Source of the DNA: Sphingomonas sp.
GTDB taxonomy: Bacteria; Pseudomonadota; Alphaproteobacteria; Sphingomonadales; Sphingomonadaceae
Direction of reading: 5' to 3'
NCBI GenBank assembly: GCA_021732445.1
Contig: JAKFUZ010000003.1
Coordinates: 62,001 to 126,000, forward strand
DNA length: 64,000 nucleotides
The notes under the pieces were generated by a model, which made no database searches, had not been told where the DNA came from, and saw only the letters and a list, made by a program, of their open reading frames with translations. Position numbers and translations under genes: made by a program. Below are positions 1-8,632 of the stretch, piece by piece. The number at the start of each line of letters is the position of its first letter. Positions within the stretch are counted from its first letter, which is position 1.

Positions 1-118
1 GGTGGACATCCTCCACAATGCCGGCGCCGTCGAACGCTGGTGGCACCGCGTGTCGCTGTGGCTGATCGGCCGGTTGCAGACGAGTGCTGAACGCCGGCGG
101 CTTACCCGCGCGGCATGA
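1..118 (+). CDS. 3' end of a gene upstream of the indolepyruvate oxidoreductase beta-like gene
   Basis: An open frame (frame 2) runs in from the left edge and stops with TGA at 116-118. It encodes about 38 residues rich in Arg, Trp and Leu, with no recognisable motif. It overlaps the start of the next gene by ATGA (ATG at 115), so the two are translationally coupled. By context it could be the C-terminus of an indolepyruvate ferredoxin oxidoreductase alpha subunit, the usual partner of the downstream protein. The fragment itself is too short to prove that. Confidence 0.5.
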   Translation, partial: VDILHNAGAVERWWHRVSLWLIGRLQTSAERRRLTRAA

Positions 119-1632
119 TCCGGCCGATCCGCCTGTCGATCAACGCGCTGGGCGGGCAGGGCGGCGGCGTGCTGGCCGACTGGATTGTCGCGCTCGGCGA
201 GGGGGCGGGCTGGACTGTGCAGGCAACCTCGGTGCCAGGCGTTGCGCAGCGCACCGGCGCCACCGTTTATTATCTCGAACTGGCGCCGCCCGCCCCAGCG
301 GCGCGCACCCCGATTCTGGCGCTGATGCCAGTGCCGGGCGATGTCGATGTGGTGATTGCGGCTGAACTGATGGAGGCTGGCCGTGCCATCGCGCGCGGGC
401 TGGTCACGCCCGACCGGACCACGCTGATTGCGTCAAGCCACCGCATTTTCGCCATTTCGGAAAAGTCGGCGATGGGCAATGGCATTACCAGCTCGGCAGC
501 CGTGCTGGAGGCGTGCCGGACCAGTGCCCGAAAGCTCGTGCTCGCCGATTTGCAGCACCTGGCAGACGCGCATGGCAGCGTCATCAGCGCAGCGTTGTTC
601 GGCGCCCTGGCAGGCTCGGCCGCGCTTCCCTTCGGCCGGGCGGCGTTTGAAGCGGCGATTGCCGGTGGCGGGGTTGGCGTTGCTCCAAGCCTGCGCGCCT
701 TTGCGGCCGCCTTTGATGTGGCGGACCGGCCAAGCGCCCAGGCGCCCGAGCCCGGGATGACATCGCCGGCGACCGTGCGCGCGCCGCCCGCCACGCTGCC
801 GGCGTTGCGCGCCCGCGTTGCCCGGCTGCCGGCGGCCGTTCAGGCAACGGCGATGCTCGGCATCGAGCGGCTCACCGACTATCAGGATGCCGCTTATGCC
901 AGCGCCTATCTTGACCGGCTGGCCGCAATCGCCAGCGCAGAGGGGCAACTCGGGGCGGACGCGCAATCACCGCTCGCCCATGCCGCCGCGCGGCACCTGG
1001 CCTTGTGGATGGCGTATGAAGATGTCATCCGCGTGGCTGATCTCAAGACGCGCGGCGCGCGCCATGCACGCGTCCGTCAGGAGGTGCAGGCAGGCGCAGC
1101 ACCACTGCTCTCCGTGCGGGAATTCATGCACCCCCGCTTTGAGGAATTGTGCGACCTGCTGCCCGCAGCGCTCGGCCGGCGACTGATCGGCTCGGCCCGC
1201 GCGCGCCGCTGGGCGGCGCCTGTGCTTGAGCGCGACCGGATTATCACGACAACGCGGCTCGGCGGCTTTTTGCTGCTGTTCGGTCTTGCCCGGCTGCGGC
1301 GCTTCCGGCGCGGCACCTATCGGTTCGCCGTGGAGCAGGCGCGGATCGATGCCTGGCTGGAAACCGCCATCAACGCCGCGCGGCGCGATGGCATGCTGGG
1401 CGTTGAAGTCATCGCCTGCCAGCGCCTCGTCAAAGGCTATGGCGACACGCACGCGCGTGGCTGGCGCAGCTTTGCGGCCATCATGAACTGGCTGGCGGCC
1501 AATGAGCAGCGGGCGGATGCGGGACATGCGGTGGCCATGTTGCGCGCGGCCGCGCTCAGCGACGATGATGGCCGGGCGCTGGCCAAGGCGTTCGCGGTGC
1601 TGGACGGTGTCACGCACGACAAGGCCGCCTGA
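115..1632 (+). CDS. indolepyruvate ferredoxin oxidoreductase beta-like subunit
   Basis: The protein has 505 aa. The N-terminal ~190 residues resemble the gamma/beta catalytic domain of 2-oxoacid:ferredoxin oxidoreductases, with the Gly-rich stretch ALGGQGGGVLADWI near residues 11-24 and a PGVAQRTGAT segment near 41-50. The rest is a long C-terminal extension like that found on large beta-type subunits (DUF6537-like). The family oxidatively decarboxylates aryl pyruvates such as indolepyruvate to aryl-acetyl-CoA, using ferredoxin and CoA. The ATGA overlap with the gene upstream suggests an alpha/beta operon. Nothing in the sequence fixes the substrate. The gene converges on the cupin gene, with only 27 bp between them. 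Confidence 0.75.
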   Translation: MIRPIRLSINALGGQGGGVLADWIVALGEGAGWTVQATSVPGVAQRTGATVYYLELAPPAPAARTPILALMPVPGDVDVVIAAELMEAGRAIARGLVTPDRTTLIASSHRIFAISEKSAMGNGITSSAAVLEACRTSARKLVLADLQHLADAHGSVISAALFGALAGSAALPFGRAAFEAAIAGGGVGVAPSLRAFAAAFDVADRPSAQAPEPGMTSPATVRAPPATLPALRARVARLPAAVQATAMLGIERLTDYQDAAYASAYLDRLAAIASAEGQLGADAQSPLAHAAARHLALWMAYEDVIRVADLKTRGARHARVRQEVQAGAAPLLSVREFMHPRFEELCDLLPAALGRRLIGSARARRWAAPVLERDRIITTTRLGGFLLLFGLARLRRFRRGTYRFAVEQARIDAWLETAINAARRDGMLGVEVIACQRLVKGYGDTHARGWRSFAAIMNWLAANEQRADAGHAVAMLRAAALSDDDGRALAKAFAVLDGVTHDKAA

Positions 1633-1642
1633 ACAGGTCGCC

Positions 1643-1660
1643 AGCGCGCTGCCGCGCGCT
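1643..1660. terminator. short GC hairpin between convergent genes
   Basis: A 6-bp stem (AGCGCG at 1643-1648, CGCGCT at 1655-1660) lies in the 27-bp gap between two convergent stop codons. There is no T-run, so it would be a weak terminator in either direction. Confidence 0.25.
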
Positions 1661-2715
1661 CAATAGTTGATGGCGGGCGACATTGCTGGGTAGAAAACGC
1701 CGATCAGCATCATCCCGTCGGCGCTCGTGCACTCGACCGAATGCGATTGCTTGCGCGGCAGGAATATCGTGTCGCCGGGCCCGATCAGCGCCTTGGTGGT
1801 GTCTGTCCACATGACGCCCTCGCCTGACAGGACGGTCAGCGTTTCCTCATAGAGGTGGCGGTGATGCGCGGCGCGCGACCTTGGGATGTGGCCGATGAAC
1901 TGCGTGACTTCTGTCCCTTGTGTCTCGCCATCGACCAGCACCTGATAATAGCGGTCCGCCATTGCCGCGCGCTTGTCAGGATCAACCGGCACGACGCGGG
2001 CCGGGACCGATTCGTCGAAGCTGGCAGGCATCTCGGCGAGGAATTCCGGCTGAGGGCCAAGCGGGCACACGGTTAGGTTAAGCGACATTGGCGCGGCGGC
2101 GGTGATCCGAAACGCCTCGCCCGCCCGCACATAGGCACCGCTTTCGGCAGGCAGCACAAAATGGCGCGCGCCAATCTCGATGGTGCCGTGCCCGGCCAGC
2201 ACATAGAGAACCGTATCGGCGGCGGCAAAGCGCAAAACTGGACCCGCCCCCACATCGTGCGTTGCCGCAAACTGGCTGAGCCGCCGGGCGCCGTCGTCCG
2301 GCCCTATCACCTGGTGGAGGGCCAAATTCCCCTCGCGGATCGTGGCGATGCCGCCGGGCCGGATGACGAAACAATTATTGTCGAGCGCTGAACGCCGCGC
2401 GCCGTGCGCATCCGCGGCCGCCGCAACCGTCACCGCGCTGGCCGCGTCTTCCTCCATCGCTGTGCCATAGCTTGCCGACAGGCTGTTGTGCGATCCGTCG
2501 CAATAGGGTGGGCCGAGCGTGCGCTTGCAGGCGCATAGCAGTTCCTCATCCGTTTCCTGAGCGCGGAACAGCAACGGCATGAACCGGGTGCCGATATGCG
2601 ATCCGTCGCAAAAGGGCTGCGTCTTGCTCAGCCCGCAACTGCACCACAGATATTTCTGCCCCTCGACGAGCGCGACAAGGCAGGGCTTGGTGGCGGCTAT
2701 TGCGGGTTCGTCCAT
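1660..2715 (-). CDS. fusion of tandem CDGSH iron-sulfur motifs with a bicupin
   Basis: The protein has 351 aa. The N-terminus carries two consecutive CDGSH cluster motifs: CSCGLSKTQPFCDGSH (ligands C25, C27, C36, H40) and CACKRTLGPPYCDGSH (C61, C63, C72, H76). Each should bind a [2Fe-2S] cluster with three Cys and one His. After a linker near residues 80-110 come two cupin-like beta-barrel segments. The last contains HHRHLYEE and a GPGDTIFLP...H pattern typical of metal-binding cupins. The gene lies 19 bp after the TonB receptor on the same strand, so the two are probably one operon. The domains suggest an iron-dependent redox or ring-modifying role for an imported compound. No specific reaction can be assigned. 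Confidence 0.8.
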   Translation of the reverse strand: MDEPAIAATKPCLVALVEGQKYLWCSCGLSKTQPFCDGSHIGTRFMPLLFRAQETDEELLCACKRTLGPPYCDGSHNSLSASYGTAMEEDAASAVTVAAAADAHGARRSALDNNCFVIRPGGIATIREGNLALHQVIGPDDGARRLSQFAATHDVGAGPVLRFAAADTVLYVLAGHGTIEIGARHFVLPAESGAYVRAGEAFRITAAAPMSLNLTVCPLGPQPEFLAEMPASFDESVPARVVPVDPDKRAAMADRYYQVLVDGETQGTEVTQFIGHIPRSRAAHHRHLYEETLTVLSGEGVMWTDTTKALIGPGDTIFLPRKQSHSVECTSADGMMLIGVFYPAMSPAINY

Positions 2716-2734: not shown

Positions 2735-5056
2735 TCAGAATTTGCGGCTGCCGGAAATTCCGAGCGTGCGCGGCCGCACTGTAATCAACGCAAGCGGATC
2801 CTGCGATGATGAAATCGCGTCGATCTGTGGGCGCGCATCAAACAGGTTGCGCGCGAACAGCTCGACCCGCCACGGGCCATTTTCCACGCCGACCCGAAGG
2901 TTCGTCAGCGAATAATCGCCCAGCAGCACATTGAACCGGTCGCGGGTGCGGCCAAGGGTAGTGTGAGACGACCCGCGATAATTCGCATCGGCATGAATAA
3001 CATAGTTGAAATTGCCCGACAGCGGCCGGTTGACGTCCAGATTAATGCTGCCGCTGAACCGGGGGACGTTGGGAACATTGTCGCCGCGAAGCCCAAGTGC
3101 CGGATCGCGCGGCACCCCTCCTGGCTGATCGGAGGTCAGGAAGGCGCGCTGGTATGACCCGGCAAGGTCAAGTGTCACGCCGGTTGCCAGCACCGCGTTG
3201 ACATCGGCCTCGACGCCGTTCACCGCGGCCCCGCCAGCGTTGGTGGTGAAGGGAAACGCGCCCGTTGAATCGACCGCGCGCACCTGAATGTCAGACCAGT
3301 CGATATGGTAGATGGCCGCATCAACCGTCACCCTGCCGCCGGCCAGCGTCAGCTTGGTGCCCAGCTCGTAATTGACCAGCGAATCCGAGCGATAGCCACG
3401 CGGAATGCCGGAGGCGAACGGCAAATCAGCCTGGTTCAGCCCGCCGACCCGAAACCCCGAAGCCGCTGTTGCATAAACCAGCACGTCGCGATTGGGTTTC
3501 CAGCTGATATTGCCCTTCCACGTTACCTTGCTGTCGCTGTCGCTGTTGGTGAGCACGCCGGGCGGATTGGGGCCGAAGCCGCCAAAGGGGTGTGTCGTTT
3601 CCTGCCGCGAGTCGAGCGTGGAGCGAAAATAACGCGCGCCGCCCGTCACTGCCAATGCCGGTGTAAAGGCGTAGGTCGCCTCGCCAAACACCGCATATTG
3701 GTTCAGCCTGTTATTGTCGAAGCGGCCGAAAAATGTGTTGCCGTCGGGGTTTGACAGCGCATCATCGGCATTCAGCCGGCTAAAGACGCCGCGCGGCTGG
3801 CCCAGATTGTTGGAACGCACTACCTGCACGTCGAAATTTGACAATTCCCGGCTGTAGAACCCGCCAATGACCAGGTTGAACGGCCCGCTGAATTTTGAGG
3901 CATAGCGGATTTCGTTCGACCAGATGCGGCGCGACTGAGGCTGGATGGTGATGCCCGGTATCGGCACGCCGAAGAAGAACAGGATGGGTGAGGAGTCGAA
4001 ATTGAACAGGATGTCGCGGTCAAAATAATTGGTCGTTGCGGTGATGTTGCCGGCCGAAAAATTATACTCGCCGGTCAGGCTGTAGATTTGCGTGGTGTCG
4101 TCATAAGGGCTGATGGTGAGGTCGGTGTTGATAAGGTCGCCGCCGGGCACTGCCGGGAAGCCTGCCGTCGAAAAGCTCGGCGTGCCGGGCGGGGTGTAGC
4201 GTGACGACCCGTCAGAATGCTGTTTTTGATAGGTGGCCGACGCGGTCAGCGTGAAATTGTCGGTCGGTGTATAACGCAGCAGCGCGCGGCCGCCGCCCGT
4301 TTCATCGGTATTGACATTGTCGAGCCGGCCCGAAGGGATGCGTACCTGATCGACATAGCCGCTGTCATTCACAAACCAGCCGACCAGGCGGAGCGCAAGC
4401 TTGTCGTCGACAATGGGCAAGTTGATCGCGCCATTGATGTTGTAGTTCGCCCCACCCTTGTTGGTGCCGGAAACCTCGCCGGCGACATAGCCGCCGAATT
4501 TGTGCGTGTCGGGCTTGTTGGTGATGATGCGGATGGTGCCGCTTTCAGAGCTTGCGCCATAAAGCGTGCCCTGCGGCCCTTTCAGCACCTCGATGCGCGA
4601 AATGTCGTACAGCTTCAGGTCAACGTTGCGGCCGCCGCCGTCATTGCGGTTGTCAGCGCTGATGACGGCTTCGTCATAATAAGCGCCAACGGTTGCAGCC
4701 CCGGTCGAATTGATGCCGCGAATGACGTATTTCTTGTCGCCCGGCCCCAGGTCTTGATAGGCAAGGCCGGGCACGCGGGTGGCATATTCGGCGAACTGGG
4801 TGATGCCGGATTTGGTAAGCGTCTCGCCAGTCAGCGCCTGCACGGTAATCGGCACGCTGCGGATCGACTCGTCGCCCCGCTTGGAGGCGCTCACGATGAT
4901 GTCAGGCACGGTCGCCTCGGGCGTGGCGGAGTCGGATTGCGCCGTGTCGGGCGCGGCCGATTGTGCCTGTTGCGCGGCCGCCGGCAGGGCCGTGGACGCG
5001 AGCAGAAGGCCAAGCGTGGTAGCCGAAAGCCGGTGACCCAAATGCCGCTTCATCAT
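2735..5056 (-). CDS. TonB-dependent outer-membrane receptor
   Basis: The protein has 773 aa when started at the ATG at 5056, which follows a GGGGGA ribosome site. An in-frame start 63 bp upstream would put 21 extra residues ahead of the signal peptide. A signal peptide ends near ALPAAAQQ. A TonB-box/plug region follows (DIIVSASKRGDESIRSVPI, then a plug domain with the AEYATRVPGL segment). A long 22-strand-type barrel ends in FSGSRKF-like Gly/Phe residues typical of BamA-dependent insertion. The family imports scarce ligands across the outer membrane using TonB energy. The gene is divergent from a kynurenine-like catabolic operon and cotranscribed with a CDGSH/cupin protein, so an aromatic or indolic ligand is more likely than a siderophore. 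That is inference. Confidence 0.88.
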   Translation of the reverse strand: MMKRHLGHRLSATTLGLLLASTALPAAAQQAQSAAPDTAQSDSATPEATVPDIIVSASKRGDESIRSVPITVQALTGETLTKSGITQFAEYATRVPGLAYQDLGPGDKKYVIRGINSTGAATVGAYYDEAVISADNRNDGGGRNVDLKLYDISRIEVLKGPQGTLYGASSESGTIRIITNKPDTHKFGGYVAGEVSGTNKGGANYNINGAINLPIVDDKLALRLVGWFVNDSGYVDQVRIPSGRLDNVNTDETGGGRALLRYTPTDNFTLTASATYQKQHSDGSSRYTPPGTPSFSTAGFPAVPGGDLINTDLTISPYDDTTQIYSLTGEYNFSAGNITATTNYFDRDILFNFDSSPILFFFGVPIPGITIQPQSRRIWSNEIRYASKFSGPFNLVIGGFYSRELSNFDVQVVRSNNLGQPRGVFSRLNADDALSNPDGNTFFGRFDNNRLNQYAVFGEATYAFTPALAVTGGARYFRSTLDSRQETTHPFGGFGPNPPGVLTNSDSDSKVTWKGNISWKPNRDVLVYATAASGFRVGGLNQADLPFASGIPRGYRSDSLVNYELGTKLTLAGGRVTVDAAIYHIDWSDIQVRAVDSTGAFPFTTNAGGAAVNGVEADVNAVLATGVTLDLAGSYQRAFLTSDQPGGVPRDPALGLRGDNVPNVPRFSGSINLDVNRPLSGNFNYVIHADANYRGSSHTTLGRTRDRFNVLLGDYSLTNLRVGVENGPWRVELFARNLFDARPQIDAISSSQDPLALITVRPRTLGISGSRKF

Positions 5057-5359
5057 GTCATTCCCCCATGTTGCCGCACCCCGACATTTCCGGGGCATCC
5101 CGGAACAAAAGGCGTGCACGATCGGGCGGGCGACACAGGCGCCGGGGCAATGGCCAACAGAGCCGGTTGCCCGCCGGAGGAAAGTCTGCCTGATCGAAAT
5201 TTATTTTCAACCTAAAACATATTGGGCGGCGCTCCGGCCGTTTTTCATATCGACAAAGCGCCGGGCATGTTGCACTTGTGTCACACATTCACGTGAATCT
5301 GTAACCAAATCGGGGCAGAGCCCTGGCGATGGACAGGCGTGTTGACGGGGAGGAACCGG
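5057..5359. other. 303-bp divergent intergenic region
   Basis: This region separates the receptor and PLP-enzyme operons and has no convincing ORF. It contains an AT-rich patch at about 5198-5222, a perfect 12-bp palindrome at 5287-5298 and a ribosome site (GGGGAGG) just before 5360. The AT-rich patch offers a TTGAAA-like -35 on the minus strand but no clear -10. Control of both operons from one operator is plausible. Confidence 0.6.
5287..5298. promoter_or_regulatory. perfect palindrome, candidate operator
   Basis: ATTCACGTGAAT is a perfect 12-bp dyad located 62 bp before the PLP-enzyme start and 230 bp from the receptor start. Its position suits a repressor or activator site controlling the divergent operons. 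No matching regulator gene is visible nearby. Confidence 0.4.
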
Positions 5360-6511
5360 ATGACCGACATCGCGCCAGACTGGACGGCGCTTCGCGCGCG
5401 CTTTCCGCTGCTCGCCGACCATGGTTTCATCAACAGTTGCTCTTATGGGCTGATGTCGACCGATGTCGAAGCGGCCTGGCTGCGCTACATTGCCGACCGC
5501 AACCGGCATGGCAGCCGTTGGGAGGCATGGGTTGGCCAATATGAAGCGTTGCGGGCAGATTTTGCCGCGCTGCTGGGTGCCAGCCCGGCCGAACTGGCGA
5601 TAACGGCGTCGGCGTCGGCGGGTATCAATTCGGTTGCCAGCGCGCTGCGGTTTGACCAGGGCCGCGACGGCATCGTCATTACCGATCTGGAATTTCCAAC
5701 CAACGCGCAAATCTGGTTCGCGCAGGCAGCGCGCGGCGCGCGGGTCGCCCAGGTCGGCGCAACCGGCAATGCCTCAATGCTCGAACGGCTGGACGAGGCG
5801 ATTGACGCGCGCACGCGGATCGTTGCCATCACGCATGTCTGCTACCGTAATGGCGAGCGGCTTGACGTGGCCGCCATTGCCCGCATGGCCAAGGCCAAGG
5901 GCGCGCTGGTGCTCGTCGATGGATTTCAGGCCATTGGCACGATGCCCATCGACATGCGCGACATCGATTGCGATTTCTACGTCGGCGGCACGCTGAAATA
6001 TCTGCTCGGCACAGCGGGCATTGCCTTTCTCTATGCGCGCGCCGCCACCACCGCCGGGCTGCAACCCACCGCCACCGGCTGGTTCGCGCAGGAAAACACG
6101 CATGCGATGGATCATACCGCGCACCGCCCCGCACCCGACGCGCGCCGCTTTGAGGCCGGCACGCCGCCGGTGCCCAACATTTATGCCGCCGCCGCCGGGC
6201 TAAACATCGTCGCGAAGGTGGGCCTGCACAACATTGCCCAGCGCATTTCACGCCTTACCGCGCGGATTGCCGAGCAGGCGCATTGGCTTGGCATTCCCAT
6301 GGCGACCCCTGACGACCCGGCGCGGCGCGGCGCCATGGTTGCGCTGCGCAGCCACGACGCCCAGGCCATGGTGACGGCGCTGCACGCGGCTGATATCGTC
6401 ACCTCGTCGCGCGACGGAAATTTGCGGCTGTCGCCGCATTTTTATAATGAAGAGAGCGATATTGATAAGGCATTTGAGGTCATTTCCCGGCACCGCGCGC
6501 TTATGCTTTAG
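5360..6511 (+). CDS. class-V aminotransferase-fold PLP enzyme (kynureninase-like)
   Basis: The protein has 383 aa from the ATG at 5360, preceded by GGGGAGG at a 6-bp spacing. A GTG 21 bp upstream lacks this. The PLP-binding pattern is clear: LVDGFQAIGTMPID (the Asp-x-x-Gln that stacks on the cofactor), then YVGGTLKYLLG, with the Schiff-base Lys in GTLKY. The length and order fit fold-type I class V enzymes (cysteine desulfurase, isopenicillin epimerase, kynureninase). It is followed by a cyclase-family hydrolase and a PrnB/IDO-superfamily protein, so cleavage of a kynurenine-like beta-gamma bond is the favoured guess. A Cys-persulfide or epimerase role cannot be excluded from sequence. Confidence 0.75.
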   Translation: MTDIAPDWTALRARFPLLADHGFINSCSYGLMSTDVEAAWLRYIADRNRHGSRWEAWVGQYEALRADFAALLGASPAELAITASASAGINSVASALRFDQGRDGIVITDLEFPTNAQIWFAQAARGARVAQVGATGNASMLERLDEAIDARTRIVAITHVCYRNGERLDVAAIARMAKAKGALVLVDGFQAIGTMPIDMRDIDCDFYVGGTLKYLLGTAGIAFLYARAATTAGLQPTATGWFAQENTHAMDHTAHRPAPDARRFEAGTPPVPNIYAAAAGLNIVAKVGLHNIAQRISRLTARIAEQAHWLGIPMATPDDPARRGAMVALRSHDAQAMVTALHAADIVTSSRDGNLRLSPHFYNEESDIDKAFEVISRHRALML

Positions 6512-7463
6512 GCGCGGTAGCGCCGTCGGGCTGGCCAGCGCGCTGCTGCTCGGCGCCTGTGGTGCCCAAACCGCGCCCGACCGGCCGACGGATTTGTGGG
6601 CAGCCTACCAACATCATTTCGCGGCGGCAAAATATATTGATCTGACGCATGGTTTTGCCCCGTCTGACCCGCGCGGCACCGGCTTTGGGGCGGTTGCGGT
6701 GGCGCCCGCCCGGGCGGCCATTGACCTGCCGCGCTTCATGAAAAAGGGCGAGGCGTTCAGCTATGCAGGCCAGGGCGCGGCGATCACCGCCTATACGCTG
6801 CCGACCGACCAGGTCGGCACCCAGTTCGATCCCCCTGCGCATGGCAACCCCTTGGGTGCGACGATCAGCGATGTGCCGCCGACGCTCGCGGTCCGCCCCT
6901 TGGTGGTGATCGACCTTGCGGCCAAGACAGCCGCCGACCCCGGTTATGTCGCGCGCCCAAGCGACGTTGCGGGGTGGGAGGCCAAACATGGCCGTATCCC
7001 GGCCGGCGCGGTCGTCATGTTCCGCACTGACTGGTCAAAACGGTGGGGCGATGCGGCGCGCTTTACCGCGCGCCCCTTTCCCGGAATCGCGCTGGAAACC
7101 CTGAAACTTCTGCATCTGGAGCGCCGCATCGCGTTCCACGGGCATGAGCCGCTTGATACCGACGCAACACCGGATCTGGTCGCCGAGCGCTGGCTGCTCC
7201 GCCATGATTTTGCGCAAGCCGAAGGAATAGCCAATCTCGATCAGGTGCCCGAAGCAGGCGCGCTGGTGACAATCGGCTTTGCCAAACCGCTTGGCGGGTC
7301 GGGCGGGCTGGCCCGCTACATTGCCATTGCGCCGGCGGATTGGCCGCATGGCACAACGATTGCGCAGGCGCCAGGCGCACCGCTGCCGCGCCAGCGCGCG
7401 CCGCTGGTGCGCGGGCCGGACAATGTGCTGCGCCCGCAAACACCCCTGGGGGTCGCCCCGTGA
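6447..7463 (+). CDS. cyclase-family hydrolase (kynurenine formamidase-like), probably exported lipoprotein
   Basis: The ORF of 338 aa overlaps the end of the PLP-enzyme gene by 65 bp. The N-terminus has a basic start, a hydrophobic run and a possible lipobox, LLLGACG, around residues 34-40. The start codon is uncertain (ATG 6447, or TTG 6462 or 6474). The body is the metal-dependent cyclase fold (PF04199) shared by KynB formamidases and isatin hydrolases. The signature appears as DQVGTQFDPPAH instead of the usual HxGTHxDxPxH, so two His positions are D and Q while the Asp and last His remain. The downstream stop is coupled to the next gene by GTGA. The position in the operon suggests hydrolysis of an N-acyl or lactam product of the PrnB-like enzyme. 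Confidence 0.75.
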   Translation: MKRAILIRHLRSFPGTARLCFRRGSAVGLASALLLGACGAQTAPDRPTDLWAAYQHHFAAAKYIDLTHGFAPSDPRGTGFGAVAVAPARAAIDLPRFMKKGEAFSYAGQGAAITAYTLPTDQVGTQFDPPAHGNPLGATISDVPPTLAVRPLVVIDLAAKTAADPGYVARPSDVAGWEAKHGRIPAGAVVMFRTDWSKRWGDAARFTARPFPGIALETLKLLHLERRIAFHGHEPLDTDATPDLVAERWLLRHDFAQAEGIANLDQVPEAGALVTIGFAKPLGGSGGLARYIAIAPADWPHGTTIAQAPGAPLPRQRAPLVRGPDNVLRPQTPLGVAP

Positions 7464-8632
7464 GCCCGGCCGCCGGCAACTTCGACGCCTGGATCAGAGG
7501 CGCCTTCGTCGCGCACAATAGCGCGCTGGAGCAGCTTTACTTCGCGCAGGCAGACCGGGCCAACGTCGCCGGGACGGGCGACCACATAAAGGCGGCGCTC
7601 CGCGATGAGGGGCAGCGCCACATTCACGCCTTATGGGCGGAAGGGAACACCGGCGAGGGGTTTGAAAGCGCGTTTGACGTGCTGGGCAATGTGGGGCTGT
7701 ATCTTGCCGCATTGCGGCGGCATGAACTGACAAATCCCGCGCGGGAAGCCCGCTCGCCCTTTGCCGAAGCCTCGTCGCTGGCGCTGCATGTCGGTGCGTC
7801 TATCGGCATGGCTCCGCGCTTTGCGACCGCGCATCTGGCGACCCATAACCGGGCGGTGCTCGGCGTTCGCAAGAGCTTTACGGCGCTTGCCGATGAGGCG
7901 CTGTTCATCGACGAAAATGCGCGCGCCATCCTGTGCTTTCAGCGCGCCGCCGACGCGCTCGTCAGGGTGCTGCCGCTGGGCGTTACCAATCCTGTGGCCG
8001 ATGTGCAGTTTGCCGCAGCGGCCGATGCGCTGCGCTGCGTCCTCGCCATAACGACACGGTTGTTCGAGACGCTGGACGTCGCGCGCTTTTTCTTCAGCGT
8101 TCGGCCTTATTACAAGCCCTACCGGGTTGGCCGGCACGAATATCGCGGTGCCAATGCCGGCGACTTTGCCGGCATCAACGAGCTTGACCTGCTGCTTGGC
8201 CTGACGCGAGCCAACGACCCGAGCTATGCCGAGCTGCTCGTCGACAAAATGCTGTTCATGCTGCCGGCCGAGCAGGCACGGCTGCGTGACTGTATGGCGC
8301 ACAAGAGCCTGCTCGACGAGTTTCTGGCGCTGGTGGATGCCGGAGCCGATCCGGCTGTATATCGCGGCAATGCCAGGTTGTTTCTGGAGGTCGTCGCGCT
8401 GTTTGGGCAGACTGCCGCGGCCCACCACGACCAGCTCGTCAAGCGGTTCATAGCGACGCCGGCCGAGGCGTTGCCCGAAGCGCATCTGGCCGGGCTGACC
8501 GCGAGCGGCCCGCCGCTCGACGTGTTGCTAAGATCGCTGGCAGCGCTGCGCGACCAGCGCACGGCGCATAGCGGCGGCGCGGCACGCAACCGCGCGAACG
8601 ATCTGGCCCGCCTCGCCAGCGCCATCGGGTGA
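7460..8632 (+). CDS. PrnB-family protein (indoleamine dioxygenase superfamily)
   Basis: The protein has 390 aa from a GTG at 7460 that overlaps the previous TGA as GTGA and follows a TGGGGG ribosome site. The frame stays open further upstream, but that part only shadows the cyclase gene. The sequence resembles monodechloroaminopyrrolnitrin synthase PrnB and related DUF1864 proteins: all-helical, with YYKPYRVGRHEYRGANAGDF near the middle and a C-terminal helix with adjacent His residues H322/H323, which are candidates for the axial haem ligand. PrnB belongs to the IDO/TDO haem superfamily and rearranges 7-chlorotryptophan. No halogenase or other prn gene is present here, so pyrrolnitrin synthesis is unlikely. 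Oxidative opening of an indole fits the neighbours better. Confidence 0.7.
   Translation: MSPAAGNFDAWIRGAFVAHNSALEQLYFAQADRANVAGTGDHIKAALRDEGQRHIHALWAEGNTGEGFESAFDVLGNVGLYLAALRRHELTNPAREARSPFAEASSLALHVGASIGMAPRFATAHLATHNRAVLGVRKSFTALADEALFIDENARAILCFQRAADALVRVLPLGVTNPVADVQFAAAADALRCVLAITTRLFETLDVARFFFSVRPYYKPYRVGRHEYRGANAGDFAGINELDLLLGLTRANDPSYAELLVDKMLFMLPAEQARLRDCMAHKSLLDEFLALVDAGADPAVYRGNARLFLEVVALFGQTAAAHHDQLVKRFIATPAEALPEAHLAGLTASGPPLDVLLRSLAALRDQRTAHSGGAARNRANDLARLASAIG

Follow-up and report, generated by a model that had tools for sequence, protein, structure and literature searches.

An SO4414-type haem oxygenase and a class-V PLP enzyme in a Sphingomonas gene cluster: a candidate route from tryptophan to anthraniloyl-CoA via isatin

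Which product would a bacterial haem oxygenase form from an indole when its gene is coupled to genes reminiscent of kynurenine breakdown? The question is raised by three genes at positions 5360-8632 of a 64,000-nucleotide stretch of DNA from Sphingomonas sp. (assembly GCA_021732445.1, contig JAKFUZ010000003.1, positions 62,001 to 126,000), hereafter called the window. The original prediction described them as a head-to-tail operon for a PrnB-type dioxygenase, a formamidase-like and a kynureninase-like enzyme that together open indoles oxidatively in parallel to the kynurenine route. The arrangement is borne out by the open reading frames of the window (Table 1): the first and second genes share 65 nucleotides (nt) with ATG 6447 taken as the start codon (TTG at 6462 or 6474, in the same frame, could serve instead), the second runs into the third with a GTGA at 7460-7463, and the ATG at 5360 sits inside a longer frame with a GTG start at 5339. 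The family labels hold as well, since the Pfam scores of all three genes exceed the cut-offs (Aminotran_5 157.5 bits and KYNU_C 39.3 bits for the first, Cyclase PF04199 for the second, PrnB PF08933 504.5 bits for the third) and are thus not due to chance. In the source genome (2.84 Mb, 38 contigs) the haem-type gene is present in a single copy. We tentatively favour, with a confidence just short of even, the reading that the locus is an aerobic tryptophan-catabolic cluster which reaches anthraniloyl-CoA via isatin.

From the gene families, gene order, co-occurrence and motif signatures that we observe, we infer the following chemical steps. The SO4414-type haem enzyme would transfer both atoms of O2 onto L-tryptophan and leave the C2-C3 bond uncleaved, yielding dioxindolylalanine. 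Since this compound is isomeric with N-formylkynurenine (tryptophan plus O2), a TDO-like enzyme could form it by sparing C2-C3. The class-V pyridoxal phosphate (PLP) enzyme would release isatin and alanine by a kynureninase-like retro-aldol reaction on the side chain, an upstream isatin hydrolase would convert isatin into isatinate, and IorAB would decarboxylate isatinate onto CoA, giving anthraniloyl-CoA with no ATP-dependent ligase; its further processing may fall to a protein of the salicylyl/2-aminobenzoyl-CoA monooxygenase type and to beta-oxidation-type genes. Kynureninase-type enzymes perform retro-aldol cleavage, and isatinate, a 2-oxoacid, belongs to the substrate class of IorAB. Ring-retaining outcomes have precedents in the haem superfamily, as the excerpts of two sources describe oxindole formation by MarE and a cyclic monooxygenated product of IDO (PMC12921851, PMC11904535). 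MarE itself is presented in the excerpt of PMC11904535 as a 2-oxindole-forming haem monooxygenase of the same superfamily, with an oxindole outcome instead of ring cleavage, but it is TDO-like in sequence, biosynthetic and directed at beta-methyl-tryptophan. It is possible, and we hold this somewhat less firmly than the reading of the locus itself, that these steps make up an undescribed aerobic pathway of Alpha- and Gammaproteobacteria, in which an SO4414-type dioxygenase and a kynureninase-like PLP lyase give isatin and alanine and isatin hydrolase and IorAB proceed to anthraniloyl-CoA with no ATP and no formate release, replacing TDO-KynB-KynU. If true, it would comprise two new chemistries, the formation of a dioxindole by a haem enzyme that leaves the ring uncleaved and a PLP-dependent retro-aldol reaction yielding isatin; the open-access literature that was searched (titles and the starts of abstracts) contained no tryptophan-to-isatin route by a haem and PLP pair.

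As judged from sequence and structure modelling, the product of the third gene is a predicted member of the haem-dependent aromatic oxygenase superfamily and falls into the SO4414 clade, outside PrnB proper. Among solved structures, SO4414 of Shewanella oneidensis (PDB 2nwb/1zee) is the closest with E ~4e-130, compared with 2e-12 and 50 bits for PrnB. A structure model computed from 13 aligned relatives (mean predicted local distance difference test score, pLDDT, 78.4) matches SO4414 with Z values of 43.8-46.8 (46.8 to 2nwb) at 51-52% identity over nearly the whole length, PrnB with Z 27-28.1 at 15-17% identity and IDO with Z 25.7-26.5 at 14-16% identity; the structural alignments span 318-331 residues and place the protein in the fold of the PrnB/IDO/SO4414 superfamily. 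Thus, the PrnB/IDO fold expected by the original prediction stands, whereas its name 'PrnB-type' does not, as identity is ~15% to PrnB and IDO alike and the nearest structure is that of SO4414. In the profile alignment, H323, the second residue of the pair H322 and H323, falls on the axial His of IDO1 (chain position 349, which is human H346 after an offset of 3 taken from the G262A site); we take residue 346 of human IDO1 to be the axial haem ligand. Both His residues are present in 89 of the 89 loci described below, and the title of PDB entry 2nwb names ferric haem bound to SO4414. Loop 216-234 of the model is poorly defined. By PDB release dates, SO4414 structures have existed since 2005 and a haem-bound one since 2006; no assigned function was found for SO4414 in the open-access literature searched.

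The Pfam name and the fold, together with a probable tryptophan-type substrate, link the protein to PrnB of pyrrolnitrin formation, and the genome does encode one PF04820 (Trp_halogenase family) protein on another contig (G000:C11:16030-17412, 405.9 bits), far from the locus. A secondary-metabolite enzyme with PrnB chemistry, that is aminophenylpyrrole formation, would suit these features. However, the protein reaches only 50 bits and ~15-16% identity to PrnB, the window contains no PF04820 or Ring_hydroxyl_A match (the single Ring_hydroxyl_A match of the genome is on contig C29) and the surroundings look catabolic, so that we regard this explanation as very improbable. Pyrrolnitrin-type biosynthesis was rejected on the same grounds: weak identity to PrnB, neither a halogenase nor a Rieske gene in the window, and neighbours of catabolic appearance. 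The earlier statement that halogenase genes are missing is correct for the window and incorrect for the genome.

The generality of the arrangement was assessed in named genomes, a scan of which yielded 353 confirmed relatives of the haem gene; the best 80 were used, and the set is therefore weighted to close relatives. Together with 8 further loci and the window they make up 89 loci, among which L104 duplicates L075, and 25 of the 80 locus stretches measure 17 kb or less. The census employed tblastn at 1e-8 with 30% of query length and 30% identity (the identity filter was not applied to the PLP seeds), and 19 random regions of 19.5 kb each from seven genomes with the haem gene served as control; SDR and ECH queries matched 2 control regions each, and both were left out as evidence. 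A class-V PLP gene occurs in 30 of the 80 loci and in 5 of the 8 further ones, compared with 0 of the 19 random regions. No more than 150 nt separate the PLP and haem-gene matches in 19/80 and 4/8 loci (20/80 counting L040), and three PLP subtypes directly adjoin the haem gene in different loci. In L040, from a Steroidobacter metagenome-assembled genome (MAG), the haem gene, a PLP gene and an isatin hydrolase are consecutive, with a GTGA overlap (4 nt) between the first two, and in L081 the isatin hydrolase match stops 11 nt ahead of the haem-gene match. IorA or IorAB was detected in 12/80 loci, isatin hydrolase in 9/80 and the CoA monooxygenase in 4/80, so that any of the three is present in 15/80 and 2/8 loci and in none of the 19 random regions. 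The same regions also lack CDGSH-cupin (8/80 and 2/8 loci), Lrp (10/80), permease (7/80) and middle-gene-type (3/80) matches. By contrast, L031 is the only other locus with the contiguous trio, arranged as cyclase-type, PLP and haem gene and with a different PLP subtype; L043 and L053 contain all three kinds, but there the cyclase-type gene is ~9 kb away on the opposite strand. Recurrence in other genomes is therefore general for the haem and PLP pair, whereas the trio itself is close to private. In three relatives (L097, L098 and L100), a PLP gene adjoins the haem gene as well, but no isatin-route genes are found in 19.5 kb. The haem gene occurs in 8 of 298 genomes of the same family, in 7 of 398 genomes of a phylum sample (6 over cut-off) and in 1 of 385 genomes of a class sample, this one being the window's own genome; the titles of the best 80 relatives name Sphingomonas, Novosphingobium, Steroidobacteraceae, Marinicaulis and many unclassified Gamma- and Alphaproteobacteria MAGs.

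Candidates for the steps that follow isatin lie ahead of the trio, where the cluster extends up to 10.4 kb upstream of the window on the same contig and includes an amino-acid permease, a thioesterase-like gene, an enoyl-CoA hydratase, MarR, an SDR, an FAD/OYE fusion, RidA, a canonical cyclase and IorA. The hydratase matches PRK08258 over its cut-off, and the FAD/OYE fusion (782 residues) aligns with PRK08255 over nearly its full length at 1008.1 bits, just under the cut-off of 1078. The fusion is a near relative of the salicylyl-CoA 5-hydroxylase/2-aminobenzoyl-CoA monooxygenase type, for which 2-aminobenzoyl-CoA would be a candidate substrate. The frame of IorA (L003 7995-10118) overlaps IorB by 4 nt; IorB exceeds the PRK08312 cut-off, and IorA scores 287.2 bits against a curated cut-off of 650.9. 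The canonical cyclase (L003 7089-7979) carries HTGTHFDAPIH, GLAS and WYW and is a predicted isatin hydrolase, as HxGTHxDxPxH plus GLQC/GLAS plus WxW is proposed in the excerpt of PMC6117287 as the signature of this enzyme, KynB having I(L/I)E instead. On sequence grounds, isatin hydrolase, IorA and the CoA-ester monooxygenase would point to isatin and not to N-formylkynurenine. In genome G871 (L103), thioesterase, hydratase, MarR, SDR, CoA monooxygenase, RidA, CDGSH-cupin, PLP and haem genes are retained together, with isatin hydrolase elsewhere in the genome; its PLP, CDGSH and CoA-monooxygenase genes share 72, 76 and 78% identity with their window counterparts.

The PLP enzyme belongs to class V. 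The window protein scores 93.0 bits with the kynureninase model TIGR01814 (cut-off 246.4) and 144.4 bits with the SufS subfamily model (cut-off 475.1), and a profile made without canonical kynureninase yields about alike values for SufS-type 4w91 (156.3 bits), other SufS proteins (~138 bits) and kynureninase (136.7 bits). A firm kynureninase assignment is thus not supported. An A2 profile had given kynureninase as best PDB match with 282.5 bits, but was biased by its kynureninase row; profiles A3 and A4, which omit this row, took its place. The structure model was built from the A2 alignment with that row included, and its structural ranking, in which Z values for desulfurases, C-DES and kynureninase are tied, decides nothing. 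K213, D187, W241, R351 and R356 are invariant in a 16-row alignment including one canonical kynureninase, although part of these five residues is common to class V and hence not kynureninase-specific. The window type, a second subtype (PLP2) and canonical kynureninase all keep the PLP lysine, the Asp, the GW motif and the two C-terminal Arg residues, whereas in the window protein Q takes the place of the kynureninase His of DxxH, and L that of the Tyr preceding the lysine. PLP2, encoded beside the haem gene in other loci, is closest to kynureninase (148.6 bits versus 91.2 for SufS), and a third subtype is present in L040, L052 and L073. We conclude that the window protein is a kynureninase/SufS-like lyase, which is proposed to release alanine from the oxidised side chain. 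The higher SufS score, the tied Z values and a Cys within 341-356 in 6 of the 16 aligned PLP proteins would also suit a sulfur enzyme (desulfurase or C-S lyase) that is unrelated to indole chemistry, or genes that are neighbours by accident. Yet Cys is absent from residues 341-356 of the window protein, and the recurrence of PLP genes in the loci but not in random regions, with three subtypes directly beside the haem gene, is at odds with chance; we consider this explanation improbable. The missing C-terminal-loop Cys as a family-wide divide from desulfurases was rejected in view of the six rows that have it, and holds for the window protein only. A scan of viral contigs with this protein revealed no relative.

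Does the haem enzyme instead supply the kynurenine pathway? The locus resembles TDO-KynB-KynU in its logic of a haem oxygenase, a cyclase-fold hydrolase and a class-V PLP lyase from the same superfamilies, but differs in the isatin-hydrolase signature of the cyclases, in the IorAB and CoA-ester monooxygenase genes that follow and in the rarity of TDO. All 11 canonical cyclases found in the loci with an isatin-hydrolase query display HxGTHxDxPxH, GLQC/GLAS and WxW. At 1e-4, TDO and AFMID-type queries found no match in the 89 loci (the TDO search rests on one query), and KynB queries gave only weak matches to three isatin hydrolases. An AMP-ligase motif appears in 2 loci, in both at a distance of ~7.5 kb to the haem gene. 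The genome has no benzoate-CoA ligase over cut-off, with 14 matches below it. TDO is also without a match in this genome, while the five same-genus genomes listed all have it. In the 298 family genomes, for which the scans for the haem gene, TDO and isatin hydrolase were treated as one set because the genomes agree as far as listed, TDO was detected in 1 of 8 genomes with the haem gene versus 172 of 290 without (Fisher p 0.011), and isatin hydrolase in 5 of 8 versus 28 of 290 (Fisher p 0.0005), the p-values ignoring shared ancestry and two of the eight genomes being congeners. KynB over cut-off was found in 0/13 genomes with the haem gene and 5/13 without. Given the IDO/PrnB fold, the recurring PLP neighbours and the absence of a TDO match from this genome and its rarity alongside the haem gene, a parallel oxidative indole route fits better than before these tests.

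Kynurenine chemistry with a substitute dioxygenase is nevertheless the main alternative. Here, the SO4414-type protein would form N-formylkynurenine, some hydrolase would remove formate, the PLP enzyme or a kynureninase encoded elsewhere would yield anthranilate and alanine, and the isatin genes would serve another substrate such as indoleacetate. The IDO-type fold, the kynureninase-like PLP2 neighbours and the retention of a canonical kynureninase with an overlapping alpha/beta hydrolase in a genome without a TDO match speak for it. The lack of KynB- and AFMID-type matches in the loci with the queries used, the isatin-hydrolase signature of the canonical cyclases, the isatin hydrolase in or adjoining the operon in L040 and L081, and the 8 of 13 haem-gene genomes without an over-cut-off kynureninase speak against it, and we judge it unlikely, though it deserves more weight than any other competing explanation.

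Several observations weigh against the route through isatin. The window PLP protein is about equally near SufS and kynureninase, and the uniform cyclase signature is partly a product of selection, as the query was an isatin hydrolase. Neither PLP nor isatin-route genes were seen in the stretch covered of 39 of the 80 loci (15 of the 39 span at most 17 kb and are hence cut), and the two occur together in only 4/80 (L040, L063, L077 and L079). Among genomes with the haem gene, 5 of 13 have a kynureninase over cut-off, compared with 11 of 13 without, and this genome has one on contig C4, overlapping the alpha/beta hydrolase mentioned above; both findings would fit a kynurenine route. In five loci, the haem gene is preceded by an S-formylglutathione-hydrolase-like gene (by eye), which suits formyl chemistry and thereby the kynurenine alternative. 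In four loci (L076, L082, L083 and L089), an aminotransferase and fused IorAB accompany the haem gene, and no PLP gene is seen. Finally, the excerpt of a 2025 preprint (PMC12633357) argues against isatin as a part of iad auxin degradation and assigns C8H7NO2 as substrate to IadI, which is annotated as a formamidase.

The four loci with IorAB and an aminotransferase, which stem from Parvularculaceae/Alphaproteobacteria, lead to a further explanation, in which the substrate of the haem enzyme is a different indole, such as indoleacetate, indolepyruvate or indole itself, within auxin or aromatic-amino-acid metabolism; isatin would derive from this compound, and the PLP enzyme would be an unrelated neighbour. 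According to the excerpt of PMC9613470, iorAB-like genes also occur in iad auxin loci. The iad/Bradyrhizobium route described there shares the isatin/isatinate level with the locus, but begins with a Rieske enzyme on indoleacetate; the sole Ring_hydroxyl_A match, on C29, implies that no such iad-type enzyme is encoded nearby. In addition, the PLP gene is the commonest partner among those sought, and PrnB binding is strongly weakened on loss of the substrate carboxylate in the excerpt of PMC11791213. We therefore give little credence to another indole substrate.

For the middle gene, the nearest solved relatives are isatin hydrolases (2e-22). However, the cyclase metal motif HxG[T/A]HxDxPxH, as given in the excerpt of PMC6117287, is replaced by QVGTQFDPPAH, and the leader appears by eye lipoprotein-like with a lipobox-like LLGAC. 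The metal motif is likewise incomplete in the relatives of this type in L031, L043 and L053, and by eye all four proteins have a signal-peptide-like leader, containing RR in L043 and L053. The type is confined to 4 of the 89 loci (3 of the best-80 set and the window), and in G871 the PLP and haem genes are a few nt apart and the middle gene is absent. Loss of the metal motif, a leader-like N-terminus and rarity render a role as formamidase doubtful; the formamidase originally predicted is thus unlikely, and a putative exported accessory is more likely. In L031, L043 and L053, the exported cyclase type has another class-V PLP protein, with the pattern FPALxR...FFDNAAGAQ, as its neighbour.

The context of the 89 loci frames the question of what the haem enzyme makes as one between two isomers, N-formylkynurenine and dioxindolylalanine. 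If isatin is formed, this would represent a second bacterial route from tryptophan to the anthranilate level. It would bear on the origin of bacterial isatin and on the choice of the haem fold between ring cleavage and ring-retaining oxygenation, as well as on annotation, because in the libraries used the genes score as PrnB and as desulfurase/kynureninase.

Table 1 Positions in the window of the three genes and of neighbouring features
Feature	Positions	Strand	Matches and remarks
SO4414-type haem-dependent aromatic oxygenase (predicted)	7460..8632	+	PF08933; GTG start
Class-V PLP enzyme, kynureninase/SufS-like (probable)	5360..6511	+	Aminotran_5, KYNU_C
Exported-looking PF04199 cyclase-family protein, metal motif lost, putative accessory	6447..7463	+	PF04199 95.5 bits
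IorB-type subunit, 2-oxoacid:ferredoxin oxidoreductase	115..1632	+	PRK08312 659.3 bits (cut-off 348)
Two CDGSH [2Fe-2S]-type motifs + cupin	1660..2715	-	zf-CDGSH two stretches, Cupin_2
TonB-dependent receptor, between cluster halves	2735..5119	-	Plug + beta-barrel

Among the neighbours, the CDGSH-cupin protein is a possible electron donor to the haem enzyme, which would bear on the inactivity of PrnB with common redox systems. TonB-type matches of at least 30% identity occur in 9/80 loci, an association that may be non-specific. A KatG gene downstream of the trio was dropped as a partner, for the other 88 loci have no KatG match. In L076, L082, L083 and L089, the haem gene is convergent with the aminotransferase, which is of aromatic type by eye, and the fused IorAB measures ~1,160-1,180 residues where complete. 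The five loci with the S-formylglutathione-hydrolase-like gene (L059, L064, L065, L069 and L074; four Marinicaulis and one other Alphaproteobacteria MAG) have the haem gene preceded, by eye, by a glutathione-dependent formaldehyde dehydrogenase-like gene, a GNAT gene and the hydrolase-like gene. In L028, L071, L077 and L079, one or two copies of amidohydrolase-type genes (by eye) adjoin the haem gene or lie within ~3.5 kb of it.

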